Shown: piece after piece, positions 42,883-61,555 of the stretch
How the letters are laid out: each line of letters starts with the position of its first letter
Position numbering within the stretch: the stretch's first letter is position 1
Assembly: GCF_030811475.1 (NCBI RefSeq)
Contig: NZ_JAUSQV010000001.1
Span: 3,297,001-3,361,000 of the forward strand
Direction of reading: 5' to 3'
Length of the DNA stretch: 64,000 nt
From: Nakamurella flavida
GTDB taxonomy: Bacteria > Actinomycetota > Actinomycetes > Mycobacteriales > Nakamurellaceae
Position numbers and translations under genes: made by a program
The notes under the pieces: generated by a model
Databases searched by the model: none
Told to the model about the DNA's origin: nothing
What the model saw: only the letters and a program-made list of their open reading frames with translations

Positions 42883-44808
42883 ATGACGGGCACGACGGGG
42901 CAGCCGGATCCGGTCGACGGTGGTGCGGGTGTGGACGGGTCCGTGGGACACGGTCTCGACACCGACGGTGGCGCCGACTCCCCGACGGACTCCCCGGTCG
43001 CGCCCGCCGCTCCCACGGGTGGGCGGCGGCGCGTCATCGGCTTCGTCATGCTGGGTGCCGGGGTCGCGGTGCTCGCAGCCATGGGGTGGGTGGGCTGGCG
43101 GGCCTACCAGGCCTACACCCACCTGCAGGCGGCGGCCGCCGAGGTGAGCACCCTGCAGGATCAACTCCAGGACATCACCGCCCTGGACGGCGACGCCACC
43201 GCCCGCACCGTGGCGAGCCTCCAGCAGGAGGCGGCCGCCGCTCGGTCGGCGACCCAGGACCCGGTCTACCGTCTGGCCGGCTCGGTTCCGTTGATCGGAG
43301 CGAACCTGCGGGCCATCGGCGAGGTCGCCACCGTGGTGGACGGCCTGTCCACCACCGTCATGCCGTCACTGGTGCAGATCGCGACCACGCTGGACCCGGC
43401 TGCGCTGTCCCCCCGGGACGGCGCGATCGACCTGGCCCCGCTGCAGACGGTGGCACCGCTGCTGCAGGCGGCCGATGCCGAGGTCGTCGCGTCCCGGACG
43501 CGGTTGGCCGCGATCGACCGGTCCGATCTGGTCGGCCAGGTGGACTCCGCGGTCGTCACCCTGGCCGGCAAGCTCGACGACGCAGCCGCCGTCACGGCCA
43601 CCGGAGCGCGGGCGGCCCGGTTGCTGCCGCCCATGCTGGGCGCCGACGGTCCGCGCACCTATCTCGTCGTGTTCCAGAACCTGGCCGAACCGCGGGCCAC
43701 CGGCGGGATCTTCGGCTCGTTCGCCCTGGTGCGGGCGGACGGCGGCCGGATCGACATCCTGGATCAGGGTGCGCCGAGCCGGGTGCTCAAGGAGTTCCGC
43801 CCGCCGCTGGTGGAGCTGCCGGAGAACGAGAAGCAGCTGTACACCACCGGGATGGCCATCTATCCGCAGGACGTGAACTTCACCCCGGACTTCCCGACGG
43901 CGGCCTCGATCTTCGCCACCATGTACACGACGCGGACCGGGACGGCGGTGGACGGCGTGCTGGCCGTCGATCCGGTCGCCCTGTCCTATCTGATGAAGGG
44001 CATCCCGGCCATCGACGTCGGCCAGGGGGTGGCGATCACCAGCGAGAACGTGGCCGAGGTCTTGCTCAAGCAGGCCTACGACCTGTTCCCGGAGGAGGAC
44101 CAGTCGGCCCGGGACGATTTCCTCGCCGGGGCCACCGGTCGGGCCTTCGACGCGGTCACCTCCGGTGCGGGCAGTGCGCGGACCGTCCTGGACGGCCTGC
44201 GTCGGGCGGTCCAGGAACGCCGGCTGATGGTGTGGAGCGCGACGGCCGACGAACAGGACGATCTGGCCGCGACGAGCCTGTCCGGTTCGCTCCCGACCGA
44301 CCCTGCGCACCCGAGCATCGGGGTGTTCCTGAACGACGGCACCGGGGCGAAGTTGGGCTATTACCTGCACAACTCGGTGTCGGTCACCCCCGGGGAATGC
44401 GGCACCGACGGCCGCCGCGCCCTGGACGTCGCGGTCACGCTGGATTACCGCGCTCCGTCGTCCGGCCTGCCCCCGTACGTGTTGGGGCTGGAGCTGGGCG
44501 GGGCGCCTTACGCATTGCGCACCAATCTGCTGGTTTTCGCCCCGGTCGGTGGGGGAATCGTCATGGCCTCGCAGGAAGGCGCCCCGACCACGATGCGCCG
44601 CGGGGAGGACGAGGGACGCGAGGTCGGGACGACCACGCTGACGATGATGCCCGGGGAATCGCGGACGGTGACCGTCCGCGTGCTGGGCCCCGCACCCTCG
44701 CTGACCGGCACCGACGAACTGTCGACTCAATTGGTCGTCACGCCGGGGGTGCGGCCCTGGGAGCTGACGCCGACGTCCTTCCCGGTCTGCCCGGCTCCGA
44801 CCTCCTGA
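42883..44808 (+). CDS. DUF4012 membrane protein (second paralogue)
   Basis: A 641-residue paralogue of the preceding gene with a shorter N-terminal tail (about 45 residues), one membrane helix (about 47-75) and the same domain: WRAYQAYTHLQAAAAEVS, LLPPMLGADGPRTYLVVFQN, ATGGIFGSFALVRADGGR and NDGTGAKLGYYLHN. The shared order and identical short motifs show tandem duplication and divergence. No clear ribosome-binding site precedes ATG 42883; a TAGAGT hexamer at 42858-42863 could be a -10 for a short leader, but without a good -35. Inferred role: envelope or exopolysaccharide-associated function, by family and place. Confidence 0.85.
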   Translation: MTGTTGQPDPVDGGAGVDGSVGHGLDTDGGADSPTDSPVAPAAPTGGRRRVIGFVMLGAGVAVLAAMGWVGWRAYQAYTHLQAAAAEVSTLQDQLQDITALDGDATARTVASLQQEAAAARSATQDPVYRLAGSVPLIGANLRAIGEVATVVDGLSTTVMPSLVQIATTLDPAALSPRDGAIDLAPLQTVAPLLQAADAEVVASRTRLAAIDRSDLVGQVDSAVVTLAGKLDDAAAVTATGARAARLLPPMLGADGPRTYLVVFQNLAEPRATGGIFGSFALVRADGGRIDILDQGAPSRVLKEFRPPLVELPENEKQLYTTGMAIYPQDVNFTPDFPTAASIFATMYTTRTGTAVDGVLAVDPVALSYLMKGIPAIDVGQGVAITSENVAEVLLKQAYDLFPEEDQSARDDFLAGATGRAFDAVTSGAGSARTVLDGLRRAVQERRLMVWSATADEQDDLAATSLSGSLPTDPAHPSIGVFLNDGTGAKLGYYLHNSVSVTPGECGTDGRRALDVAVTLDYRAPSSGLPPYVLGLELGGAPYALRTNLLVFAPVGGGIVMASQEGAPTTMRRGEDEGREVGTTTLTMMPGESRTVTVRVLGPAPSLTGTDELSTQLVVTPGVRPWELTPTSFPVCPAPTS

Positions 44809-46383: not shown

Positions 46384-47874
46384 ATGGATGTGCGTGGTTG
46401 GGTCAGAGCGCTCCGCAAGAACTGGTGGATCGTGCTGGTCACCACGGCCGTCGCGCTCGGTATCGGCGTCCTGGTGACGGTCCTGACCCCGAAGCAGTAC
46501 GCCAGTTCGGTGACGTTCTTCGTCCGCACCCCGACCGAACAGATCACCGGCGCCTATCAGGCGGATCAGTTCGCCCAGAAGCGGGTCAACTCCTACGTGC
46601 AGCTCCTGGACAGCCAGTCGTTGGCCGACCTGGTGTTGCAGGAGACTCGTCTCCCGATGACGACAGGACAGGTGCAGAGCGCCATCTCGGCCAAGGGAGA
46701 CCTCAACACCGTCCTGCTGACCGCATCCGTGACGGCAGGTTCGCCCGAGACCGCTTTTCAGATCGCTGATTCCGTGTCGCGACAACTCGTGGATCTCGTG
46801 GCCTCGATCGAGACCTCCCCCGGTTCCCTCGCGCCCGCGGTCAACCTCGTCGTGACGTCGGCACCCACGCTCAACCCCGCCGCGGTCAGGCCGGAGCCGT
46901 TCGTCAACCTCGGGTTGGCGTTGATCGCCGGGCTGCTGGCCGGTGTCGGCATCGCCGCTCTCCGTGAGATCCTCGACACCTCGGTGCGGTCCGTCGACAC
47001 CGTGAAGGCCACGAGTGGCGGCGCAGTCCTGGGGGTGGTCCCGTTCGACGGGACGGCCAAGGCCTCTCCCTTGCTCACCGACGATCGGTCCCACTCGATC
47101 CGCGCGGAGGCGTTCCGTCAGCTTCGGACCAACCTGCAGTTCGTCGATGTGGAGAACCCGGTCAAGGTCCTGGTGGTGACTTCGTCGGTGGCGGAGGAGG
47201 GGAAGTCGAACACAGCCGCCAACCTGGCGCTCACGTTCGCCGAAGCAGGTCAGCGCGTGCTGCTCATCGAAGCCGACCTCCGTCGGCCGAGGGTCGCGGA
47301 CTACCTGGGGATCGAGGGTGCGGTCGGGTTGACCAACGTGCTCGCCGGTCAGGTGAGCATCGACGAGGTCCTCCAGCCATGGGGACGGGCGAGCCTCACC
47401 GTCCTGCCCAGCGGAAGTATCCCGCCCAATCCGTCCGAACTGCTCGGCGGTCGACGGATGCACGAGGTGCTCGACCACATGAAACAGCGGTTCGACGTCA
47501 TCGTCATCGACACCCCGCCCCTGCTGCCCGTCACCGACGGGGCGATCGCAGCGGCGGCCGCCGACGGCGCCATCCTGGTCGTCCGGCATGGCAGGACCAG
47601 GCGCGCGCAGGTGGAAGCGGCCGTCGCTGCGCTGACGGCGGTCGACGCCCGCCTGCTCGGATCGATCTTGAACATGGTTCCGGCCAAGGGTGTGGATTCC
47701 TACGCCCACTACGGCTACGGGTACTACGTCGCTGATTCCGAGCACAGCGCCAGAGGATTCCTCCAGGTGTCGAAGGACGACCCGTCCGCATGGGTGCCTG
47801 CCGTGGAGCGCGACGTGCCGGCGGGCACTGCGGGCGGCAGGCACATGACGCTCGAGCCCGAGCACACCCGCTGA
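46384..47874 (+). CDS. Polysaccharide co-polymerase / tyrosine autokinase (Wzz-CpsD type)
   Basis: A 496-residue fusion of chain-length determinant and BY-kinase. Wzz part: helix near 14-34, outer region, and a second helix near 178-198 (LALIAGLLAGVGIAALREI). Kinase part: Walker A variant VAEEGKSNTAANLAL near 268-282 (GKS followed by Asn), Walker A' LLIEADLRRPRV and Walker B VIVIDTPPLLPVTD. The C-terminus has a tyrosine cluster, Tyr440, 443, 445, 447 and 448, the usual autophosphorylation tail. It controls length and export of the polysaccharide. ATG 46384 follows GAGAGGG; the leader upstream has a possible RNA switch. First gene of the cluster. Confidence 0.92.
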   Translation: MDVRGWVRALRKNWWIVLVTTAVALGIGVLVTVLTPKQYASSVTFFVRTPTEQITGAYQADQFAQKRVNSYVQLLDSQSLADLVLQETRLPMTTGQVQSAISAKGDLNTVLLTASVTAGSPETAFQIADSVSRQLVDLVASIETSPGSLAPAVNLVVTSAPTLNPAAVRPEPFVNLGLALIAGLLAGVGIAALREILDTSVRSVDTVKATSGGAVLGVVPFDGTAKASPLLTDDRSHSIRAEAFRQLRTNLQFVDVENPVKVLVVTSSVAEEGKSNTAANLALTFAEAGQRVLLIEADLRRPRVADYLGIEGAVGLTNVLAGQVSIDEVLQPWGRASLTVLPSGSIPPNPSELLGGRRMHEVLDHMKQRFDVIVIDTPPLLPVTDGAIAAAAADGAILVVRHGRTRRAQVEAAVAALTAVDARLLGSILNMVPAKGVDSYAHYGYGYYVADSEHSARGFLQVSKDDPSAWVPAVERDVPAGTAGGRHMTLEPEHTR

Positions 47875-47882
47875 TCGACCAC

Positions 47883-48803
47883 ATGAGCCGATCTGGATCT
47901 GAGGTAGTTCCCACCCCCTCACGGCACGTCGTCGCGGTGACCGTCGCGACCTACCGCCGTCCGGGTCTGCTCCGAGAGTTGTTGCAGACAGTCGTGCCGC
48001 AGACCGAGCCCGGGCGGCACGTGGTCGTGGTCGTCGACAACGACCCCCTGGGTTCGGCACGGGTCGTGGCCGGGGAGTTCCCGTCCGTTCGTTACTTGCT
48101 CGAGGAGAATCCGGGGATCGCCGCTGCGCGCAACCGCGCGGTCGGCATGGTGATCGACGACGTCACCGCGGTGGCCTTCGTGGATGATGACGAGACGGTC
48201 GGTGCGGGATGGCTCGAATCGATGATCAGCGCCCTGGACGGACTCGACGCCGATGTGATCGTGGGGCCCGTCATTCCCATCCTGCCGGAATCTGCTTCTC
48301 CGCTGATCGTTCGACTGAGGTTCTTCCAACGCCCGCGCGCACGCACGGGGGACGACGTCCGGTGGCCGGCGACGAACAACTCGATCGTCACCGTGGAGGC
48401 GTTGAGACGCCTGGAGGGCGACCACTTCAGGGAGAGCTTCTCCCGGACCGGTGGAAGTGACGCCGAGCTCTTCTGGCGTCTCCGCAGGCTCGGGATTCGG
48501 ATGCGGTGGCTCGACGAAGCTGTTGTGTACGAACGTGTTCCACCGGAGCGGGCGACATGGCGATGGTTGTGGCGCCGCGGGGTCCGGCTCGGCAACGTCA
48601 GCGGACGCCTGCTGTCCCGCGAGCGGCCCCGTTCCTACGTCGCCGGGGTCGCCGCTGCGCGTCTGCTCGTCGGGCTCGTTCTGGGGCCCGTCTTCGCCGT
48701 CGTCGCACCCCGCCGGGCGGCACTGACCCTGATGCATGTTCCGAAGGCCGTCGGAATGGTCCGCAGCATGACTGGGAACTATGTGCAGGAGTACGCCCGA
48801 TGA
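47883..48803 (+). CDS. Glycosyltransferase family 2
   Basis: A 306-residue GT-A fold transferase. The N-terminus holds the nucleotide-sugar domain (VVAVTVATYRRPGLLRELL and VVVVDNDPLGSARVVA), a donor/metal motif DDD at 101-103 (AFVDDDETVG) and an acceptor region with DAELFWRLRRLGIRMRWL. One or two C-terminal hydrophobic segments suggest membrane association. It adds one sugar to the lipid-linked repeat unit; donor and linkage unknown. ATG 47883 lies eight bases after the kinase stop, and its stop overlaps the next ATG (ATGA). Confidence 0.9.
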   Translation: MSRSGSEVVPTPSRHVVAVTVATYRRPGLLRELLQTVVPQTEPGRHVVVVVDNDPLGSARVVAGEFPSVRYLLEENPGIAAARNRAVGMVIDDVTAVAFVDDDETVGAGWLESMISALDGLDADVIVGPVIPILPESASPLIVRLRFFQRPRARTGDDVRWPATNNSIVTVEALRRLEGDHFRESFSRTGGSDAELFWRLRRLGIRMRWLDEAVVYERVPPERATWRWLWRRGVRLGNVSGRLLSRERPRSYVAGVAAARLLVGLVLGPVFAVVAPRRAALTLMHVPKAVGMVRSMTGNYVQEYAR

Positions 48804-49777
48804 CCGTGGGGACCCGGCCAGCTGTCTCCGTCGTCATCCCGACGGTCCTGCGGGACCAGCTCGAGCGTGCCGTCCGCTCGGTCCGATCCCAGTCGTACGA
48901 CGGACGGGTCGAGGTGGTCGTCGTGATCGACCGCCCGAAGACTCCCGAGTCGGAGGCGAGGGCCGAGCGCCTGACCGCCGACGGCGTCGACCGGATCGTC
49001 TGGACGGGAGGCGGGCGGGGCGGGGGGCATGCCAGGAACCTCGGGATCTCGTCGGCGACCGGAGTCCTGCTCGGCCTGTTGGACGACGACGACGAATGGC
49101 TGCCCCACAAACTCGACGAACAGGTCGAGCGCATGCATGCCGGCGCCGACGAGCTTGTGCTGAGCTGCCGGATAGTCCAGGTCGACCCGTCGACCGGCCG
49201 GAGTTCTGTGCCGGTCCCGCGGACGCTGGCTTCCCCCCCACAGCGCATCGAGGAGTATCTCTTCCGGCGGCGCCGACCATCCATCGATCGGGCGGCCTTC
49301 TACACATCGACCCTCCTGTTGACCAGAGAGTTGGCTCGGCGGATTCCCTGGGACGAGGACCTGCCCCGCCACCAGGACTGGGATTGGCTTCTCCGGCTGC
49401 AACGCGATGCAGATGCGCATTTCGCTCACATACCTTCCGTCGGGGTCCGCATTCATGCGAACAGCGATGGGTCGATTTCCGCCAGTTCGGACTGGGAGTC
49501 CTCGCTACGGTGGATACAGGCGTGGGATCGTGACATCTCCGGGGCCACGGCTGTGGACTTCGTGACCGCTCAGACCCTCCGGTACGCGCTGGATGGCAGG
49601 TCCGTGGTCGGGGTCAGGGGCGCGGTCAGCGCTGTCTGGAGGCACCGGCGGCTACCCGCGCCGGGCCCGACCGTCATCGCGCTGTCCGGGCTGATCCCGA
49701 GGCGGCACCTCGCGCGTGCGCTGATGCGCACGGTCGACCCGGCAGCCGTGGCACGCTCCGCCGGGGGCGTGCGATGA
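48800..49777 (+). CDS. Glycosyltransferase family 2
   Basis: A 325-residue GT2 enzyme. The N-terminus PAVSVVIPTVLRDQLERAV is the classic start, then EVVVVIDRP, GGHARNLGISSATG and the metal motif LLDDDDEWLPHK (Asp95-98). An acceptor-binding segment LPRHQDWDWLLRLQ with the ED/QD element follows. It probably adds a second sugar in the repeat unit. ATGA overlaps on both sides (48800 and 49774) place it in tight translational order between the first GT2 and the fucosyltransferase. Codon use is less GC-biased than in housekeeping genes of the window. Confidence 0.9.
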   Translation: MTVGTRPAVSVVIPTVLRDQLERAVRSVRSQSYDGRVEVVVVIDRPKTPESEARAERLTADGVDRIVWTGGGRGGGHARNLGISSATGVLLGLLDDDDEWLPHKLDEQVERMHAGADELVLSCRIVQVDPSTGRSSVPVPRTLASPPQRIEEYLFRRRRPSIDRAAFYTSTLLLTRELARRIPWDEDLPRHQDWDWLLRLQRDADAHFAHIPSVGVRIHANSDGSISASSDWESSLRWIQAWDRDISGATAVDFVTAQTLRYALDGRSVVGVRGAVSAVWRHRRLPAPGPTVIALSGLIPRRHLARALMRTVDPAAVARSAGGVR

Positions 49778-50646
49778 GCAGGCGACATGTCGAGGTGGAA
49801 CTCTCCGGAGGTCTGGCCAACCAGCTCTTCCAGTGGAGCGCGGGACGGGTGCTCGCCGATGAACACGGTGTTCCTCTGATCCTGGACGCATCGCTGGTCT
49901 GTCGACCGGATGGTCGGGGACTCCAGGTGGACCGGTTGTCCGATCACGAGCGGCTCGTCGAGCCCGGAGAGCTCACGCGCAGGCTCTGGTCGTCTGCGCA
50001 TCGATGGTTGCCTCGGGTGCCACTGGGCCTGGTCAAGCGAATCGCGCTGCGGAGGCCGAGGGCCACCCGCCGATGCGGGGACCTCAGGGCTGCTCGTGTC
50101 GTCCTGGGGTCCGGCCGGTCACCGCGCCTGGCCGGCTTGTTCCAGGAGCCCGATCTCCTGTTCGCGCAGCGGGAGAACATCAGGGAGCGCGTCCGGACCC
50201 GGCTCCCGGCGGGCGGTGCGGTCGCGTCCCTGCCCGAGAACTATGCCGCTGTTCACATTCGGCGGGGCGACTACGTCTCGAACGAGAAATATCGGCGACT
50301 GTTCGGCGTCTGCAGCGAGCAGTACTTCCGCAGGGCCATCCGCCGACTCGATCCGTCCCTGCCGATCGCCTTCGTCAGCGACGATCCCGCGTGGTGTCGA
50401 TCGTTCGCCACCTCGCTCGGTTTTCCCGCGCACCGCATCCTGCCCCCGTCCGGCAACGACCACTTCGATGACCTGGCCACGATCGCCCGCGCGAAGGAGG
50501 TGGTGCTGTCGAACAGCACGTTCTCCTGGTGGGGCGTCTACCTGGGTGAGCCGGTCACGGTCATCTGTCCGGAACCATGGTTCACCGAGCGTTCCCGCGA
50601 CCGCGGTCTCGTACTGCCGGGGTGGATCAGAGTGCCTCGTGACTGA
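49774..50646 (+). CDS. GT11 alpha-1,2-fucosyltransferase-like
   Basis: A 290-residue transferase of the GT11 family, which moves L-fucose from GDP-fucose to a hydroxyl, usually alpha-1,2. Family motifs: N-terminal VELSGGLANQLFQWSAGR, motif I HIRRGDY (161-167), motif II region PIAFVSDDPAWCRSF and motif III SNSTFSWWG (246-254). The GDP-fucose supply genes fcl and gmd lie 2.5 kb downstream, which supports the assignment strongly. ATG 49774 overlaps the previous stop. The next gene's GTG overlaps its end by eight bases. Confidence 0.92.
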   Translation: MSRRHVEVELSGGLANQLFQWSAGRVLADEHGVPLILDASLVCRPDGRGLQVDRLSDHERLVEPGELTRRLWSSAHRWLPRVPLGLVKRIALRRPRATRRCGDLRAARVVLGSGRSPRLAGLFQEPDLLFAQRENIRERVRTRLPAGGAVASLPENYAAVHIRRGDYVSNEKYRRLFGVCSEQYFRRAIRRLDPSLPIAFVSDDPAWCRSFATSLGFPAHRILPPSGNDHFDDLATIARAKEVVLSNSTFSWWGVYLGEPVTVICPEPWFTERSRDRGLVLPGWIRVPRD

Positions 50647-51880
50647 CATCGAAGGGCGCCACCGCACGGTCGCTGTCCGTACTTCATGGCGTGACAAGTG
50701 GCGCCGTGTCCAGGAACTCGGACTCTACGGGGCAGGCCCACTCGCGATCTTCATCACGGCTCCGGTCCTGGCGCAGGGTCTGGGACCTGACGCCCGCGGT
50801 GACTTCGGGGTGGCCCAGGCGGTCGTCTCCTTCGCGGCTGCCGTGGGTGCGTGCGGCCAGGCCGAGGTGTATCTCGCCGATCGTAGGGAGGGGTCAGGTA
50901 ATTATCGGGCGGCCGCGAGGGTCGCTCTGCTGGGCGCGGTGGTCACCTCGCTGCTGGCGGTGGCGGTCATGCTCGCACTCCGGCTGGACTTCGCGTTGTC
51001 GCTCGCAGCCGCGGTGCTGGTGCCCGTCATCACCCAATCGCAGCTGTGGCGGTCCGCAGCCGTCAGCCTGGGACGCATCGCCCTCCCCGCGTACTCCAGT
51101 GCGATGGCCGCCGCACTGCGCGTCCTGGCGCTGTCGGCCTTGTGGTGGGCGGCCGTCCTGAATGCGACGAGCGCCATGGCAGCCGTGCAGATGACGACTG
51201 CACTCGCCGGGGCGATCGTGCTCGGTCGAATGGTGCGCAGGCCCGGCTCTGTGGTCTCCGTCCCGTCGAGCCGGGGGCAGTATCAGGTACTGCTCCGCCG
51301 CGGAGCGCCCCTGCTGTTGTTCTCCGTGCTCACCAGCATCACCTTGCGCAGCGACATCCTCGCAGTGCAGATGTTCGCGAGTTCCGAGCAGGTCGGTGTC
51401 TATGCCGCGGCTTCGTCCCTGAGCATCTCCGTGCTGGCGATCTCGGGCGCGTTCAAGTCGCGTGTCCAGGCTGCGCTCTTCGGCGATGACGCGCGCGCCG
51501 GGCTCAGGCTGGAGATGCGGATCATCGCGTTCCTGGTGGTTCCCGCGGGCGTGCTCGCGTCCGTCGGCAGTCCGTGGATTGTGCAGATCCTCTTCGGGCC
51601 GGGTTATGGCGATGCAGTGTCCGTCCTTCGCATCCTGAGCTTCGCCGCTGTCGCTCTCGTCTTCCTGGATGTGGCGCATGCGGCAGTCGTCGTTCTCGGC
51701 CTGCGCAGACAACTCATCGGTGTGGCCGCGGTGGGCGCGGGTGTGTCCGTCGTCGCGTTGGTCGCGTTGGTACCCGCATTCGGTGCTGACGGCGCCGCGC
51801 TGGCAAGCCTGTTGGGGTACTCCGCCGGAGCCGTCACCGGCTGGCTCTGCGTCCGGAAGGCACTGGCCGATGACCGTTGA
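50639..51880 (+). CDS. Wzx-like oligosaccharide flippase
   Basis: A 413-residue integral membrane protein with about twelve helices, matching the polysaccharide flippase (MATE/MOP superfamily) type. Typical features: APVLAQGLGPDARGDFGVAQ with the early helix pair, RSDILAVQMFASSEQVGVYA and ILFGPGYGDAVSVLRIL. It should move the lipid-linked repeat unit across the membrane. GTG 50639 is chosen; it overlaps the fucosyltransferase end by eight bases, and its own end overlaps the polymerase by eleven. It was placed by family, not by a catalytic motif, as this group has none. Confidence 0.85.
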   Translation: MTDIEGRHRTVAVRTSWRDKWRRVQELGLYGAGPLAIFITAPVLAQGLGPDARGDFGVAQAVVSFAAAVGACGQAEVYLADRREGSGNYRAAARVALLGAVVTSLLAVAVMLALRLDFALSLAAAVLVPVITQSQLWRSAAVSLGRIALPAYSSAMAAALRVLALSALWWAAVLNATSAMAAVQMTTALAGAIVLGRMVRRPGSVVSVPSSRGQYQVLLRRGAPLLLFSVLTSITLRSDILAVQMFASSEQVGVYAAASSLSISVLAISGAFKSRVQAALFGDDARAGLRLEMRIIAFLVVPAGVLASVGSPWIVQILFGPGYGDAVSVLRILSFAAVALVFLDVAHAAVVVLGLRRQLIGVAAVGAGVSVVALVALVPAFGADGAALASLLGYSAGAVTGWLCVRKALADDR

Positions 51881-53117
51881 ACTCTCGAGACCTCCGTCCG
51901 GATCCCCCGGTCCACGACACGGCCGTCCCACCAGGGACCTCGCCGCGCGCCGCGTCGCCGAGGTGATGACCGTCGCGGTCATCCTGATGTACCCGCGACC
52001 GCAGGGACTGAGCGGCACGGTGATCGCGCTGGTCGGGATCGTCCTGCTCGTCGTCGGTCTGCTGGTCGGAATCAGACCGACCGCCCCACCCGTGCCCACT
52101 GTCGTCTTCGTGATGTGCGCGCTTGCATCCGCTGTCGTCAACGCCGCCGGGAGGGAGAGCTCCGGTCTGGCTGAGATCGCGGCCATGCTGATCCCGCTCG
52201 GGATGGCCGGATCCATCGTCACCGTCCTGTCGTTCGAGCGCTTCATCCAGCTCGCGGACAGGGCATTGAAAGCCGTGGTGTGTCTGAGTCTCGTCGTGGC
52301 GTTCCTGATCCCGTCGATCGGGGTGACCCAGCGCGACGTCAACGCTGGAGCCATCCGCGGGATCTACGAACATCGCAACGGCTTTGCCTACGTCATCGCT
52401 CTGGCACTGGTCACTCACCTGGCCGCCTGTGCCATCCGTGGTGGGTATCGGTCGAGTCTGTGGTGGGTCCCCATCTTCGGGTTCGGCATGCTGGGTGCGA
52501 GTTCGGTGAGCGCGCTGGCGCTCGTGGCAGTGTCCGTCGCTCTGTATCTCTGGGTCAGATTGCTGCGCGGTCTCAGCCCCGAGGTTCGCTCGATGGTGAC
52601 CCTCGCCGCTTCGAGCGCTGCCCTGCTGATCGCCTTGGCCGCGACACTGTCCTGGTCACGTCTGCTGGACGCCTTCGACCGCGAGGACACTTTCCTCAGC
52701 AGGACCGAGATCTGGCAGGGGGCGGTCACGGCATGGCGGGAACGCCCCCTCCTCGGTTTCGGATGGGGCAATGTCCTGGGAGCGGACGACTCGCCGGCAG
52801 CAGTCATCGCGGCGTTCTCGGGATACGACGTTCGCAGCACGCACAACGGTTATCTGGCAGTGGCACTCCAGTTGGGGGTCGTCGGTCTCGTCGTCGCCCT
52901 CGGTTACCTGGCGGGCCTCGTGGTCCTGGTTCTGCGGCGTGCGGCTTCGGACCCGAGCGGACCGGCGGCCTGGGCGCTCCAGATCGTCGTCATCCTCGTG
53001 CTGGGCGACCTCGTCGAGACCCGGGCCTTCGTGAACATCGGATGGTTCCTTCTCGCCGTCATCTGGCTCTACGTCAAAGGGGCGAACCGTTCCTGCTCCT
53101 CGGCGAGCATCGATTGA
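51870..53117 (+). CDS. Wzy-like polysaccharide polymerase / O-antigen ligase family
   Basis: A 415-residue membrane protein with about eleven helices and one longer outer loop. The stretch EIWQGAVTAWRERPLLGFGW followed by THNGYLAVALQLGVVG is the Wzy/O-antigen ligase hallmark (Arg and His-Asn region). It should polymerise flipped repeat units. ATG 51870 overlaps the flippase end. It is the last gene of the plus-strand run; the gene after it, fcl, points back at it with 11 bases between. Confidence 0.85.
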   Translation: MTVELSRPPSGSPGPRHGRPTRDLAARRVAEVMTVAVILMYPRPQGLSGTVIALVGIVLLVVGLLVGIRPTAPPVPTVVFVMCALASAVVNAAGRESSGLAEIAAMLIPLGMAGSIVTVLSFERFIQLADRALKAVVCLSLVVAFLIPSIGVTQRDVNAGAIRGIYEHRNGFAYVIALALVTHLAACAIRGGYRSSLWWVPIFGFGMLGASSVSALALVAVSVALYLWVRLLRGLSPEVRSMVTLAASSAALLIALAATLSWSRLLDAFDREDTFLSRTEIWQGAVTAWRERPLLGFGWGNVLGADDSPAAVIAAFSGYDVRSTHNGYLAVALQLGVVGLVVALGYLAGLVVLVLRRAASDPSGPAAWALQIVVILVLGDLVETRAFVNIGWFLLAVIWLYVKGANRSCSSASID

Positions 53118-53128
53118 TGCCCGCGACG

Positions 53129-54109
53129 TCAGGAACGAGGCCGGCCATCGGCTGAGGCCTCACGATGGTCCTGGTACCAGCGGTATGTCTGCGTGAGCCC
53201 GGTGGGTAGGTCCACCGACGAGGTCCACCCGGTGCCGTGCAGCCGGGAGACGTCCAGCAGCTTCTGCGGGGTCCCGTCCGGTTTGCCGGTGTCCCACTCG
53301 ATCGTCCCGCCGAACCCGACGGTGTCGGCGACCATGCCGGCGATCTCGGCGATGGTGTGGTCGACCCCGGTCCCCACGTTGATCGGTGCGGGGTCGTCGT
53401 AGAACTCGAGCAGATGGAGGCAGGCGTCGGCGAGGTCGTCCGCGTGGAGGAACTCCCGTCGCGGTGTGCCGCTGCCCCAGCAGGTGACCGTCGGGTCGCC
53501 CCGCCGGGCGGCCTCGTCGAATCGCCGGATCAACGCCGGCAGCACGTGGCTCTGGGTGGGGTGGAAGTTGTCACCGGGCCCGTAGAGATTGGTGGGCATC
53601 GCGGAGATGTAGGGCAGGCCGTCCTGGCGGCGGATCGCCTGGATCTGCAGGATGCCGGCGATCTTGGCGATGGCGTACGCGTCGTTGGTGGGTTCCAAGG
53701 GTCCGGTGAGGAGGGAGTCCTCACGGATCGGCTGTTCGGCGAACTTCGGGTAGATGCAGCTCGATCCCAGGAAGAGGAAGCGCGGGACGCCGACGGCGCG
53801 GGCCGCGTCCAGCAGGTTGACCTGGATGCGGAGGTTCTCGGACAGGAAGTCGGCCGGGTAGGTGCTGTTGGCCAGGATGCCCCCGACCCTGGCCGCCGCG
53901 TCGATGATCACGTCCGGCCGTGCCTCGGCCACGAAGGCCATGGTGGCGTCACGGTCGCGCAGGTCGAGCTCAGCGCTGGTCCTGCCGGTGAGGGTGCCGA
54001 CCCCGCGCCGTTCCAGCGCCCGCCACAGAGCGGAGCCGGCCAGTCCACGATGGCCGGCCACGTACACCCGGGTCCCGGGGAGGAGGGGGAAACGCTGCGT
54101 GTCGGTCAC
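53129..54109 (-). CDS. fcl: GDP-L-fucose synthase
   Basis: A 326-residue extended SDR, making GDP-L-fucose from GDP-4-keto-6-deoxymannose with NADPH (epimerisation and reduction). Seen: VYVAGHRGLAGSALW for the cofactor (GxxGxxG), FLFLGSSCIYPKFAEQPIRE with the catalytic Ser/Cys region (Ser117, Cys118), and AYAIAKIAG with Tyr145 and Lys149. MPTNLYGPGDNFHP and GSGTPRREFLHADDLADACL are also typical. With gmd on the other strand it supplies GDP-fucose for the GT11 enzyme. Its promoter is shared with gmd across 114 bases. Confidence 0.96.
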   Translation of the reverse strand: MTDTQRFPLLPGTRVYVAGHRGLAGSALWRALERRGVGTLTGRTSAELDLRDRDATMAFVAEARPDVIIDAAARVGGILANSTYPADFLSENLRIQVNLLDAARAVGVPRFLFLGSSCIYPKFAEQPIREDSLLTGPLEPTNDAYAIAKIAGILQIQAIRRQDGLPYISAMPTNLYGPGDNFHPTQSHVLPALIRRFDEAARRGDPTVTCWGSGTPRREFLHADDLADACLHLLEFYDDPAPINVGTGVDHTIAEIAGMVADTVGFGGTIEWDTGKPDGTPQKLLDVSRLHGTGWTSSVDLPTGLTQTYRWYQDHREASADGRPRS

Positions 54110-54223
54110 GGCGGGGATGGTCTCAGATTGATGGTTCTGCCGCTGTGTAGCCGAGTAATTACGCCGGGCACACCCTCTCGCTCCTAGTGTTCCGCACAGT
54201 TAGTAAGCGAAGAGGAGCTCAGG
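54110..54223. promoter_or_regulatory. Divergent promoter region, fcl / gmd
   Basis: 114 bases, less GC-rich than the surroundings, with a perfect 8-bp palindrome GTAATTAC at 54155-54162 and TAGTGT at 54185-54190 as a possible -10 for gmd. A good GAGGAG lies nine bases before the gmd GTG. A shared divergent control point for GDP-fucose supply is expected. Confidence 0.45.
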
Positions 54224-55222
54224 GTGACGCACGGAACGGAACGGCCGGCGAGGACCGCGCTCATCACCGGGATCACCGGCCAGGACGGCTCGTACCTGGC
54301 GGAATTGCTGCTGGAGAAGGGCTACACGGTCCACGGGCTGATCCGTCGGTCGTCCACGTTCAACACCGCGCGGATCGACCACCTGTACCAGGACCCGCAC
54401 GACCCGGCGGCGCGGCTCTTCCTGCACCACGGCGACCTGACCGACGGATCCCGGCTGGTCACCCTCATCGAGCGGATCCAGCCGACCGAGGTCTACAACC
54501 TGGCGGCGCAGTCGCACGTGCGCGTGTCGTTCGACGAGCCGGAGTTCACCGGCATGACGACCGGCCTCGGCACGACCCGGCTCCTCGAGGCCATCCGGGC
54601 CAGTGGTGTGCCCGCCCGCTTCTACCAGGCCAGCAGCTCCGAGATGTTCGGCGCGACACCGCCTCCGCAGAACGAGGACACCCCGTTCTGGCCGCGGTCG
54701 CCCTATGGTGCGGCAAAGGTCTACTCGTACTGGATCACCCGGAACTACCGCGAGGCCTACGACCTGTTCGCCGTCAACGGCATCCTGTTCAACCACGAGT
54801 CACCCCGCCGGGGCGAGACCTTCGTGACCCGGAAGATCGCCATGGCGGCAGCGGCGATCGCCGCGGGCAAGCAGGAGACCCTCTTCATGGGCAATCTCGA
54901 TGCGGTCCGCGACTGGGGCTACGCCAAGGAGTACGTCGAGGGCATGTGGCGCATGCTGCAGGCGGACACTCCGCGCGACTACGTCCTGGCCACCGGGACC
55001 TCATACACCGTGCGCGATTTCCTCGAGTTCTGCTTCTCGGCGGTCGACCTCGAATGGCAGAACCACGTCAGCTTCGATCCCCGGTACCTGCGGCCCAGCG
55101 AGGTCGACTCCCTGGTCGGCGACGCCTCCCGCGCCCACGCCGATCTGGGCTGGAAGGCCGAGGTGCTGCCGCCCCAGCTCGCTCGCATCATGACGCAGGC
55201 CGAGGTCCAGGCGCAGATCTGA
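54224..55222 (+). CDS. gmd: GDP-mannose 4,6-dehydratase
   Basis: A 332-residue extended SDR, converting GDP-mannose to GDP-4-keto-6-deoxymannose, the first step to GDP-fucose. Hallmarks: [19 protein letters not shown] (GxxGxxG), [19 protein letters not shown], the SSSEMFG motif (catalytic Ser/Glu region 138-140) and [10 protein letters not shown] with Tyr161 and Lys165, then [16 protein letters not shown]. Length is close to the usual size. GTG 54224 follows GAGGAG. Divergent from fcl, so the two biosynthetic genes share a control region. Confidence 0.97.
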
Positions 55223-55341
55223 CGCCTGCCGACCCGGGTGGGGGCCCGGGTCCCCGCCGCCGGTCCATGCACCGCGCGGACAGTAGATCGCGGCCGAGAA
55301 CAGCGCCGCAGGACATCGAGACACGGACGGGGGTCGAGGGG

Positions 55342-56982
55342 ATGCGTGCGGACCACGAGGCTCAGCCGGCCTCCGACCGGGTTACCCCGACCACCGCTGC
55401 CGACCACTGGCGATCCTACGAACCGGTCATCACCGTCACCTCGGCACTGCCCGTGACCCGGGAACATCCGTTCCAGGTTCCCGGAGCACCACAGCCACCT
55501 GAGCCCGTGTCCGCCACCCACCGGCCGGATCCCGAACCCCTGCCCCGCCCACGCGGTCGCTGGGTCACCTCCTACGCCCGGCACCTCTTCCTGACCGATC
55601 TCGTGGTGGTCACCGCGATGGTGCTGTTGGCGCAGGGCATCCGGTTCGAGTCGGTCTTCGACGTGACCATTGCCGGCATGTCGGACCTGAACTACTGGGC
55701 CGTCTCGGGCGTTCTCGTCGTGCTGTGGATGCTGGCGCTCGCGGTGAACGGCGGGTACGACCGCAAGATCCTGGGCTCCGGTCCCCGGGAGTACCACCGG
55801 GTGGTGAACGCCTCCCTGTACCTGTTCGGGTTCATCGCGATCGTGTCGTACCTGGGCCGTCTCGACATCGCCCGCGGTTACCTCGTTCTCGCCCTCCCGC
55901 TGGGTCTGGTCGGAATCCTGGCCGGTCGCTGGGTGTGGCGGCTGCTGCTCCGCGAGCACCGCCGGACCGGGACCCACCTGCACAACGTGCTCGTCGTCGG
56001 CAGTCGGCGCAGCGCGCTCGACCTGGCCACCCGACTGCGCTCGGCCCCGGACTTCGGCTATCGGGTGTCGGCGCTGTGCCTGCCCACGACGGGGATCGGC
56101 CCAGTCGGGCCCACCGGCGATGTCGGCGGCTTCCCGGTGATCGGCGATCTCGGCGACGTCCTGGCCGCCATCCGCTCCTCCGGCGTCGACACAGTCGCGG
56201 TGTCCTCCTCCGAGCAGTTCGGGTCCGAGGAGGTGCGCCGGCTCGGCTGGCAGCTGGAGGGCAGCGGCATCCGGCTGTGCCTGGCGCCCTCGCTCACCGA
56301 TGTCGCCGGCCCTCGCATCCACATCAAGCCGGTGGCCGGTCTCCCGCTGATGCACGTCGAGGAGCCACGCTTCCGGGGTCCCAAGCTGGTCCTCAAGACG
56401 GCCCTGGACCTGTCCGTCGCCGGGGTCGGGCTGCTGGTCCTCTCGCCGGTGATGCTCGCTGTCGCCCTGGCCATCGCGGTCAAGGACCCGGGGCCGATCT
56501 TCTTCCGGCAGGAGCGGGTGGGTCGGGCGGGGGAGCGGTTCCGGGTGTGGAAGTTCCGGTCCATGACCGTCGGCGCCGACCGGGTGGTCGACCAGGCCCG
56601 CAGCACCGCCGGTCAGCAGCACGAGGTGTTCTACAAGTCCGCGTCCGACGCCCGGGTCACCCCGCTCGGGGCCTTCCTGCGGAGGACCAGCCTGGACGAG
56701 TTGCCGCAGCTGTTCAACGTCGTCACCGGCCAGATGAGCATCGTCGGGCCACGCCCCCTCGTTCCGGGGGAGGGCGCCGAGATCGGGCACTTCCTGGAGC
56801 GCCGCATGCTGGTCAAGCCGGGCATCACCGGCCTCTGGCAGGTCTCCGGCCGCTCCGACGTCAGTGCCACCGAACGCATCCGGCTCGACTTCTACTACGT
56901 CGAGAACTGGTCCGTGGCGGGCGACCTCACCATCATGGTGAAGACGGTGAAGGCGGTGGTCGCCGGGCGCGGCGCGTACTGA
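55342..56982 (+). CDS. Undecaprenyl-phosphate sugar-1-phosphate transferase (initiating)
   Basis: A 546-residue polyprenyl glycosylphosphotransferase. N-terminal tail of about 75 Pro-rich residues, four or five membrane helices, a CoA-binding-like domain ([17 protein letters not shown]) and then the conserved C-terminal transferase domain: [52 protein letters not shown] and the end [20 protein letters not shown]. It loads the first sugar phosphate on undecaprenyl phosphate, starting each repeat unit. ATG 55342 lies 119 bases after gmd. With WbaP-type architecture, galactose or glucose is a likely first sugar, but this is not determinable. Confidence 0.92.
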
Positions 56983-58411: not shown

Positions 58412-61400
58412 TCAGCCGGTGTACTTCCACACGCTGACCCAGTCGATGAGCACGTGGCCCGAGGTGGCGGCGTCCGGGACCTCACCGTGCGTGCCGGTCT
58501 GCAGCACCCACTGCATGGCCTTGGTCGGCACGCTCTTGGTGACCGTCTGCAGGACGCGGCCGTCGAGGATGTAGACGAGCTTGCCGGGCGTCCACTCGAT
58601 GGTCGCGGTGTGCCACTGGCTGAAGCCGACCCCGGTGTCCAGGTAGGAGCAGTTCACCTGGGGGTTGCCGATGCAGTGCGTGTAGGCCCAGATGTTGCTG
58701 TCCAGCCCGCCCTCGGGGAAGTCGACCTCGCCGTCGGCCCACACCCCGGAGGACGGCCACAGCAGGCCGGCCATGCCGTAGCCGGGCAGGTTGTCGGCGC
58801 GGAAGCGGACGGAGTAGCGGCCGTAGGTCTGGCCGGTCACCTTGCCGCTCTCGTCGATCAGCGGGATCGGTGCGGCGCTCTTGGGTCGGCCGTCGGCACC
58901 GGTGCCCAGGTTCATGTCCAGCACGCCCTCGTGGACGGTGATGATGTCCTGGTCGTAGTCACCGTTCTGCGAGGTGTCGGGGAAGCCGTCGTAGCTCCGC
59001 CACTTGGCGCCGTAGCGGCCCGGGAACTCGCCGGCCGCCTGGTCGGTGCCGAAGTCCTCGGAGAAGATCTGGGCGAAGCCCGGGAGGTCGCCCTTGGGCA
59101 TCTCCTCGCCGCTGGCGGTGGCGTCGACGTGGCTGACGGCGTTCACCGTGAAGCTCTGCACGGCCCCGAAGTCGTACCAGCCGCCGGCCACCTGGGCGCA
59201 GCCCCAGTAGGTGTAGGTGCCGGGGATGAACACCTTGGTCTTGGTGAACGGCATCGCCGTGGGGCTGAGCAGGATGTTCTCGTCCTTCAGGAAGTCCTGG
59301 TTGATGCCCTTGGCGTCCTTGACGCAGATGCCCACCTGGCTGGCGGTGGCCAGTCGGGAAGCGGTGATCGAGGCGGTGGCGGTGACCTTGGCGCCGTCGA
59401 CCGCAGCGGTGAGATTCGTGGCTCCGTAGGTGGTCTGGAAGATCGGGATGATCGGGCCGCTGGGCACGGCCACGGTGAAGGTCTTGCGTTCGCCGACGTC
59501 GTTCCAGCCGCCGTTGACCTTCATGCAGCCCCAGTAGGTGTAGGTACCGGGGTCGAACGACATGGTCGCCGTCTCCACGGTCCCCGCGGTGGGCTTGAGG
59601 AGCATGTCCTTCTCGAGGGGGAAGTTGCGGTTGATCCCGTCGGAGTCCTTGACGCAGATGCCGGCGTCGGAGGCGGTGGCGTAGCGGGTGGTGGTGAGGG
59701 TGGCCTTCGCGGTGACGGACTGGCCGGTGACGGCGGCGGAGAGGTCGGTGGCGCCGTAGGTGGTGTTGAAGATGGGGTAGATCGGGCCGCTGGTCGGCAC
59801 GGCCACGGTGAAGGTCTTGCGTTCGCCGACGTCGTTCCAGCCGCCGCCCACCTTCACGCAGCCCCAGTAGCTGTAGGTCCCGGGATCGAAGGAGGCTGTG
59901 GCGGTCTCGGCGAAGCCGGCACCGGGGGTGAGCAGGATGTCCTTCTCGAGGGGGAAGTTGCGGTTGACGCCGTCGGAGTCCTTGACGCAGATGCCGGCGT
60001 CGGAGGCGGTGGCGTAGCGGGTGGTGGTCAGGTTGGCCTTCGCGGTGACGGACTGGCCGGTGACCACCGCGGACAGGTTGGTGGCGCCGTACGAGGACAG
60101 GAAGATGGGGACGATGGGTCCGCTGGTGGGCACGGCGACGGTGAACGTCCTGCGCTCGCCGACGTCCCGCCAGCCGCCCTGGACCTTGATGCAACCCCAG
60201 TAGCTGTAGGTCCCGGGATCGAAGGAGGCCGTGGCGGTCTCGAGGTAGCCGGCACCCGGGGTGAGCAGGATGTCCTTCTCGAGGGGGAAGTTGCGGTTGA
60301 CGCCGTCCGAGTCCTTGACGCAGATGCCCGCATCGGAGGCCGTGGCGTAGCGCGTCGTGGTCAGCGTGGCCTTGGCGGTCACGGACTGGCCGGTGACCAC
60401 CGCCGAGAGATCCGTGGCACCGTAGGTGGTGGTGAAGATCGGGTAGATCGGTCCGCTGGTGGGCACGGCGACGGTGAAGCTCTGCTTGGTGCCGACGTCG
60501 TACCAGCCACCGCCGATCTTGACGCAGCCCCAGTAGCTGTAGGTGCCGGGGTCGAACGAGGCGGTGGCGGTCTCGGCATATCCGTTGGGGGACAGCAGGA
60601 CGTCCTTCTCCAGCGGGAAGTTGCGGTTGATCCCGTCCGAGTCCTTGACGCAGATGCCCGCGTCGGAGGCGGTCGCGTACTGCGTGGCGGTCAGGGTGGC
60701 CTTGGCGGTGACGGACTGCCCGGTGACCACCGCGGACAGGTCCTTGGCTCCGTAGGTGGTGGGGCCCACCGGGATGATGGGGCCGCTCGTGGGGACGTCC
60801 ACCACGAAGGTCTTCTTCTCCCCGACGTTGTACCAACCCCCGCCGACCTTGATGCAGCCGTAGTAGGTGTAGGTGCCGGGGTCGAAGGCGCGGGTCTTGA
60901 CCTGCAGGTACCCCGACGGGCTCAGGGTGATGTTCTGGTCCTGCGGGAAGTTGCGGTTGGCGCCTGCGGCATTGACCACGCAGATGCCGACGTCGCTGGC
61001 CGTGATGGGCTGCGAGGAGCTGATCCGGACGGAGGCGGTGGCCGAGGTGCCGGTGACCGTCGCGGTGAGACCCGTTGTGCTGTATGTGGTGTGACCGACC
61101 GGAACGATGGGGCCGCTGGGGGTGGAGCTGACGGTGAACGTCTTGCGCTCGCCGATGTTGTACCAGCCGCCGTTGACCTTGGCGCAGCCCCAGTAGGTGT
61201 AGGTGCCCGGGTCGTAGTTCCGGGTCTTGGTGTTGGTGAAACCCGCCGGGGTGATCTGCACGTCCGCGTCCCGGGGGAAGTCGCGGTAGACACCGGCGGA
61301 GTCGATCACGCAGATGCCGGCCAGCTGGGCGGTGGTCGGCTCGGTGGCCCGCAGGGTGACGGTGCCGGTGGCGCCGGTCGTCGTGGTCGTCACCGACAGG

Positions 61401-61555
61401 CCGGACGCCGAGAACGACGGAGGCGCGGACTGCAGAGCGGTTGCGGCGCTGAGGGTCTGGGCCGACGCGGGCAGGGCGGAGGCGAGCAGGAGCAGGGAGG
61501 TCAGTCCGGCCGTGAAGGCCGTACCGGCGGTACGCAGGGTGCGTGAGAGGGCCAT
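58412..61555 (-). CDS. Secreted seven-repeat protein with C-terminal GH16-type glycosidase domain
   Basis: A 1047-residue exported protein. Signal peptide 1-32 (ending ALPASAQ), then seven repeats of about 110 residues (starts near 46, 155, 265, 375, 486, 597, 707), each with one Cys in a GIC(V) motif and one in a Y(W/Y)GC motif: Cys82/124, 192/234, 302/344, 412/455, 523/566, 634/677, 744/786. From about 815 a beta-jelly-roll GH16 domain follows, with the active-site motif GEVDFPEG (Glu943, Asp945, Glu948) matching the ExDxxE of beta-glucanases. Likely a secreted or surface beta-glycan hydrolase whose repeats bind wall or glycan. ATG 61555 has AAGGA seven bases upstream. The repeat family is not one I recognise. 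Confidence 0.88.
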   Translation of the reverse strand: MALSRTLRTAGTAFTAGLTSLLLLASALPASAQTLSAATALQSAPPSFSASGLSVTTTTTGATGTVTLRATEPTTAQLAGICVIDSAGVYRDFPRDADVQITPAGFTNTKTRNYDPGTYTYWGCAKVNGGWYNIGERKTFTVSSTPSGPIVPVGHTTYSTTGLTATVTGTSATASVRISSSQPITASDVGICVVNAAGANRNFPQDQNITLSPSGYLQVKTRAFDPGTYTYYGCIKVGGGWYNVGEKKTFVVDVPTSGPIIPVGPTTYGAKDLSAVVTGQSVTAKATLTATQYATASDAGICVKDSDGINRNFPLEKDVLLSPNGYAETATASFDPGTYSYWGCVKIGGGWYDVGTKQSFTVAVPTSGPIYPIFTTTYGATDLSAVVTGQSVTAKATLTTTRYATASDAGICVKDSDGVNRNFPLEKDILLTPGAGYLETATASFDPGTYSYWGCIKVQGGWRDVGERRTFTVAVPTSGPIVPIFLSSYGATNLSAVVTGQSVTAKANLTTTRYATASDAGICVKDSDGVNRNFPLEKDILLTPGAGFAETATASFDPGTYSYWGCVKVGGGWNDVGERKTFTVAVPTSGPIYPIFNTTYGATDLSAAVTGQSVTAKATLTTTRYATASDAGICVKDSDGINRNFPLEKDMLLKPTAGTVETATMSFDPGTYTYWGCMKVNGGWNDVGERKTFTVAVPSGPIIPIFQTTYGATNLTAAVDGAKVTATASITASRLATASQVGICVKDAKGINQDFLKDENILLSPTAMPFTKTKVFIPGTYTYWGCAQVAGGWYDFGAVQSFTVNAVSHVDATASGEEMPKGDLPGFAQIFSEDFGTDQAAGEFPGRYGAKWRSYDGFPDTSQNGDYDQDIITVHEGVLDMNLGTGADGRPKSAAPIPLIDESGKVTGQTYGRYSVRFRADNLPGYGMAGLLWPSSGVWADGEVDFPEGGLDSNIWAYTHCIGNPQVNCSYLDTGVGFSQWHTATIEWTPGKLVYILDGRVLQTVTKSVPTKAMQWVLQTGTHGEVPDAATSGHVLIDWVSVWKYTG
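59138..61420 (-). repeat. Seven ~330-bp coding repeats
   Basis: Seven in-frame units of about 330 bases within the GH16 gene. Units three to six are close to identical over long stretches, including the segment coding GICVKDSDG(I/V)NRNFPLEKD; units one, two and seven are divergent. The pattern suggests recent internal duplication or gene conversion in the centre of the array. Confidence 0.9.

Follow-up and report, generated by a model that had tools for sequence, protein, structure and literature searches.

ExoK and ExsH of Sinorhizobium meliloti are secreted members of glycoside hydrolase family 16 (GH16), exoK lying within the exo cluster, and we know of no array of repeats resembling fibronectin type III (FnIII) domains in either protein. 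Both are described as succinoglycan glycanases which cleave the exopolysaccharide of the producing organism (PMC4916376); the catalytic strand of GH16 enzymes is given as ExDxxE (with a beta-bulge) or ExDxE (PMC6827312), and RbmA of Vibrio is described as an FnIII protein binding an exopolysaccharide (PMC5605196). The present analysis concerns a 64,000-nucleotide stretch of the genome of Nakamurella flavida (contig NZ_JAUSQV010000001.1, positions 3,297,001 to 3,361,000; hereafter the window), in which the gene at 58412..61555 (minus strand) encodes a 1047-residue protein composed of a signal peptide, seven repeats and a GH16 domain. From its sequence, and by analogy with the systems above, we lean towards regarding it as a secreted GH16-fold enzyme that would process self-made exopolysaccharide, the modules serving as matrix binders or spacers; ExoK/ExsH and RbmA are taken as working precedents, neither of which shows the same role for the window protein.

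The GH16 domain (residues 816-1047; 58415..59110, minus strand) scores 30.8 bits with PF00722, above the cutoff of 22, and its predicted fold is a beta-jelly-roll. The catalytic strand is present in its ExDxxE form as E943-V-D945-F-P-E948 (58712..58729, minus strand), and the E, D and E are conserved in all of the 34 selected domains of the group. Fold and strand are shared with the laminarinases and licheninases of GH16 (2VY0, 3ILN, 3ATG, 1MAC), which top both the structure and the profile lists for this domain, whereas the motif form of the group, GE[IV]D[FWY]PE, and an identity of about 20% to solved glucanases set it apart from them. A beta-glucanase model is matched by 25/34 domains of the group and the NCBIfam ExoK model by 6/34 (in both cases at E 1e-3 or better); the latter matches are a likeness to ExoK and ExsH that accompanies the proposed role, a glycanase acting on the exopolysaccharide of its producer, but the window domain itself is not listed for the ExoK equivalog at E 1e-3. 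In a paralog of N. leprariae (L048:3364-4053) GEINFPE replaces GEIDFPE, so that the assisting Asp becomes Asn, and the activity may differ. At four other loci (L041, L042, L043 and L047) a Cys-free repeat precedes a GH16-like domain whose nucleophile Glu is, by eye, seemingly replaced (e.g., GTIDVVE); judging from these residues, they are possibly inactive relatives.

Gene order ties this GH16 group to polysaccharide assembly. A repeat-bearing GH16 gene lies within 10 kb of a listed glycosyltransferase family 2 (GT2) gene in nine of 14 genomes (11 of 25 genes), against an upper-bound expectation of 2.8 genomes and with a tail probability of 1.6e-4, calculated by treating as independent genomes which, for two Cryobacterium and two Nocardioides, are not truly so; the GT2 neighbour of the window gene, about 9 kb off, is not among the GT2 genes listed. 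In the window genome the home locus of the group is found at 1.82 Mb, where the two- and one-repeat GH16 paralogs are accompanied by a Wzx gene, GT2 genes and the gene for a recurring polytopic membrane protein, here called A5. A5 is a protein of 727-762 residues with 11-15 hydrophobic segments and, in the five copies scanned, it was matched by neither Pfam (at E 1e-3) nor NCBIfam (at 0.01); it is a candidate polymerase or lipid-linked transferase. The copy of the window genome is located at G000:C1:1824503-1826533 (L153), and others at L049:12646-14883, L063:5402-7582, L066:10582-12774, L068:11495-13759 and L069:11749-14034.

The 14 genomes with a repeat-bearing GH16 contain 15 copies of A5, 14 of which have a GH16 gene of this profile no more than 5 kb away (9/10 once the five genomes seeding the alignment are removed); 12 adjoin a repeat-bearing GH16 and two (G009:C6 and G013:C5) a weaker one (108-113 bits), and the fifteenth copy, G009:C27, has no GH16 of this profile nearby. 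A PF13440 Wzx gene is found within 5 kb of 8/15 copies, G009:C27 included. A5 was detected in 73 of the 394 genomes of the class sample, the window's own counted; of the other 72, eight have a close GH16 (>240 bits), and A5 lies within 10 kb of that gene in seven of these, while the eighth, an assembly of 430 contigs, has the two on separate contigs. Wzz was discarded as a marker of the locus: no A5 copy of the 14 genomes has a Wzz match within 30 kb, and the A5 locus is therefore not of the Wzz type that adjoins the window gene. PF02397 sugar transferase genes (five genomes) are near a repeat-bearing GH16 only in the window genome (<2 kb) and in G011 (~16 kb). In Nocardioides, a 1155-residue protein with Big_5 and GSDH rows above cutoff adjoins the repeat-bearing GH16 (L066:4440-7904), and a look-alike of it was recognised by eye in N. 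leprariae (L048:10113-13523).

The N-terminus of the window protein resembles, by eye, a Sec-type signal peptide (residues ~1-32, ending ASAQ; 61460..61555, minus strand), and AAAGGAA stands immediately 5' of the ATG. Seven repeats follow, all encoded on the minus strand: R1 (residues 44-148, C82/C124; 61112..61426), R2 (154-258, C192/C234; 60782..61096), R3 (264-368, C302/C344; 60452..60766), R4 (374-479, C412/C455; 60119..60436), R5 (485-590, C523/C566; 59786..60103), R6 (596-701, C634/C677; 59453..59770) and R7 (706-810, C744/C786; 59126..59440). Their period of ~110 residues consists of a ~105-residue domain and a short linker of the SGPIxP type; pairwise protein identity is 37-90%, far above chance, R3-R6 being mutually 77-90% identical and R1, R2 and R7 sharing 37-56% with the others. 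The protein has 16 Cys, 14 of them paired in the repeats at a spacing of 42 or 43, the GH16 domain holding the other two, C961 and C969. The first-pass annotation had described seven repeats of ~110 residues, each with two Cys about 42 apart, preceding a domain with the GH16 active-site residues Glu943-Asp945-Glu948, and both statements agree with the translation, the Cys positions and the repeat alignment, the motif reading GEVDFPE at those positions; it had further left the family of the repeat unrecognised, suggested that it may be a new glycan- or wall-binding module, and named a beta-sandwich without a Pfam hit as what would support novelty. No named family fits, and the predicted fold is a beta-sandwich, while the novelty is confined to the want of a fitting Pfam or NCBIfam model, the fold being common.

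In searches with 19 single repeats no convincing family match was obtained, the lowest E being 0.028 in Pfam and 0.094 in NCBIfam; fn3 is absent from the nine Pfam families listed up to E 1, and these nine (E 0.028-0.31, each on 1/19 repeats) are taken as chance, as are the BLF1 (E 0.0049) and Gag_MA (0.017) rows of the whole-protein Pfam scan. Wzt, an ABC transporter subunit, acts inside the cell; its C-terminal sugar-binding domain (Wzt_C, PF14524) stands high in the Foldseek list for the repeat and gives the best row over the repeats in the whole-protein scan (E 1.3e-4), but its 22.4 bits remain below the cutoff of 30.4 and only 1/19 single repeats matched it, at E 0.24, so that the row is retained as a weak lead to a common fold. 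Structure prediction of R7 yields a seven-stranded FnIII/Ig-like beta-sandwich with a mean confidence (pLDDT, predicted local distance difference test) of 93.3. From solved FnIII/Ig-like sandwiches, RbmA and the RsgI4 sensor domain among them, the repeat differs by its Cys pair on strands C and F, and the sequences of solved structures gave no convincing profile match to it (best E 0.022). The rows of a viral-structure library (headed by an unnamed protein at E 6.5e-4, with several phage proteins of the FnIII type next) were set aside as reflecting the common fold only, and in phage records no relative of R4 was found at E 1e-5.

The predicted strands that hold the Cys (31-42 and 74-84) are strands 3 and 6, that is, C and F, which neighbour each other in the FnIII sheet topology. 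Of 40 aligned repeats, 33 have both Cys and seven have neither, a single Cys never being found; this occurrence and the neighbouring strands are consistent with one cross-strand disulfide per repeat, which is probably formed. Both Cys may face outward, if the alternation of hydrophobic residues is a guide, and residue 79, which adjoins the second Cys, is W in 27/33 Cys-bearing repeats and aromatic in 31/33, as opposed to 0/7 and 3/7, respectively, in the Cys-free ones. Two of the seven repeats without the standard pair have a pair elsewhere (L045:2061-2375 and L046:2274-2567), which suggests two separate gains of a disulfide by the same scaffold; since Cys-free versions precede GH16-like domains in other actinobacteria, the Cys pair is, as far as these sequences tell, a lineage trait and not a defining feature of the module.

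The window genome, a single 4.32 Mb contig, carries five close GH16 paralogs with seven (the window gene), three (L002), two (L003), one (L004) and no (L005) repeats, a sixth GH16 match being weak (59 bits). A tree built from 44 repeats places the three repeats of the three-repeat paralog with different parts of the window array: the first joins R1 (support 0.94), the second joins R3-R6 (0.99), which form a group of their own (0.89), and the third joins R7 (0.99). This branching would most simply be explained by an ancestor with three repeats, the middle one having undergone duplication in the window gene. A query with R6-R7-GH16 found relatives at 79 named loci; proteins with one or two Cys-bearing repeats are encoded at 14 of them (in Nakamurella, Microbacteriaceae, Cryobacterium, Nocardioides, Kineococcus and Cellulomonas), the remaining 65 yielded no repeat, and seven is the largest array among the sequences examined. 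Seven further genomes have single repeats, either Cys-free or with a different Cys pairing; among six of those proteins scanned, PF00722 is above cutoff in L041, L044 and L046 and short of it in L042 (by 0.1 bit) and L047, and L045 has no PF00722 row and, by eye, a GEVDVFE motif. In a distant genome (L137) two tandem Cys-free repeats precede the GH16 domain. Surveys of the class and of the phylum, in which up to 12 candidates per genome were scored, place the repeat in at least 5/394 and at least 5/396 genomes, lower bounds that include the window genome and one doubtful genome. Two repeat matches were set aside, one containing stops (G085) and one in a protein that is plastocyanin-like by eye (G452). 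Relatives of R7-GH16 were found in 10 plasmid records, in each case with less than 80% of the query covered. A protein of Curtobacterium pusillum plasmid pCPAA3 (L093:4713-8684) has a GH16 of the same group that is preceded by a region resembling a sedolisin-like protease (by eye, with a weak Pro-kuma_activ row) and, again by eye, by tandem copies of another kind of module, likewise with two Cys per copy, apparently a parallel architecture. No paper on this protein was found by title, in a search outside which most subscription papers lay.

We propose that after export the GH16 enzyme, a hydrolase or a transglycosylase, would cut or trim the exopolysaccharide of its own cell, as ExoK and ExsH do, and that the cutting would set chain length, release or matrix porosity; the seven modules of FnIII-like fold, probably stabilised by one cross-strand disulfide apiece, would keep the enzyme in the matrix or off the cell surface. 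The home of the family would be the conserved actinobacterial locus with A5, GT2 transferases and often a Wzx flippase, and the window copy a paralog, its array grown by duplication of the middle repeat, which has come to stand beside a second, fucose-type Wzx/Wzy cluster. This cluster (46384..56982) comprises genes for a Wzz/kinase (46384-47874), a GT2 (48506-49777), a GT11 (49774-50646), a Wzx-like protein (~50642-51880; 26.5 bits, below the cutoff of 28.2), a Wzy_C protein (~51900-53117), an epimerase (53129-54109, minus strand), a GDP-mannose dehydratase-like protein named by eye (54224-55222) and a sugar transferase (~55297-56982); a DUF4012 protein is encoded upstream of it (42883-44808). 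A class-III aminotransferase gene (PF00202; 57019..58257, minus strand) follows on the same strand, 154 bases downstream of the GH16 gene.

Several observations weigh against an enzyme acting on self-made exopolysaccharide. The first-pass annotation had suggested that the polysaccharide made next door is the substrate; what stands of this is the linkage of the family to such loci, but the window gene is convergent to the neighbouring cluster and outside its operon, with the aminotransferase gene between, it has four close paralogs in the genome, and A5 has no copy in its vicinity. For the three-repeat (L053) and no-repeat (L055) paralogs no polysaccharide-assembly genes were recognised nearby by eye. 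In N. leprariae (G009) neither A5 nor a listed GT2 shares a contig with any of the four repeat-bearing GH16 genes; of the two A5 copies, one is on a contig that lacks GH16 and the second adjoins a weaker one (112.7 bits). In G013 a distance of 74 kb separates the repeat-bearing GH16 from the closest listed GT2, and A5 again adjoins a weaker GH16 (107.8 bits). Among the 72 other A5 genomes of the class sample, 40 lack a GH16 matching this profile at E 1e-15, and in the 32 that have one, the two genes are within 10 kb in only 13, weaker GH16 relatives counted. The protein, moreover, is accessory, because it is matched in only 4/17 genomes of the genus, the window's included (13/61 of all genomes searched), and linkage to polysaccharide genes does not prove a substrate.

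The alternative that fares best, and is compatible with processing of self-made exopolysaccharide, is that the repeats are plain spacers, inert linkers setting reach and stability, as might be expected from the 0 to 7 copies found among paralogs sharing the same catalytic domain and from the long Pro/Thr/Ser-rich linker that separates two repeats of the three-repeat paralog; the prevalent W at residue 79 of the Cys-bearing repeats, outward-facing if strand alternation is a guide, argues weakly the other way, the Cys-bearing and Cys-free sets being separate lineages too, and on balance we hold inert repeats to be rather unlikely. That the protein is instead a foraging enzyme, a secreted beta-1,3/1,4-glucanase directed at fungal, algal or plant glucans whose modules would bind the foreign wall, appears unlikely: it would suit the glucanase-led structure and profile lists, the matches to the beta-glucanase model and the copies lying outside any recognised polysaccharide-assembly locus (G009, L050, L053), but A5, and in many cases GT2 and Wzx genes as well, are found linked to the close GH16 group, and the identity to solved glucanases is low. 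More improbable still is a protein that is first of all a matrix scaffold, its array cross-linking exopolysaccharide in the manner of RbmA, the FnIII protein of Vibrio, and its GH16 domain mainly a sugar-binding head.

A broader proposal, which we advance tentatively and with less conviction than the processing of self-made exopolysaccharide, is that the repeats and the GH16 group mark an undescribed, conserved actinobacterial system of polysaccharide assembly (A5, GT2, often Wzx and a dedicated GH16 with product-binding modules), and that the window duplicate was re-targeted to the fucose-type cluster while its array lengthened from three repeats to seven. The fusion itself joins a known enzyme family to a module of common fold that no Pfam or NCBIfam model fits, and the linked A5 membrane protein is a more novel lead than the repeat-GH16 fusion. 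Five close paralogs with 7, 3, 2, 1 and 0 modules in one genome form a natural series on the effect of module number, and a GH16 group whose genes recur next to A5, and frequently next to a flippase gene as well, offers a handle on the making, cutting and release of some actinobacterial exopolysaccharides.
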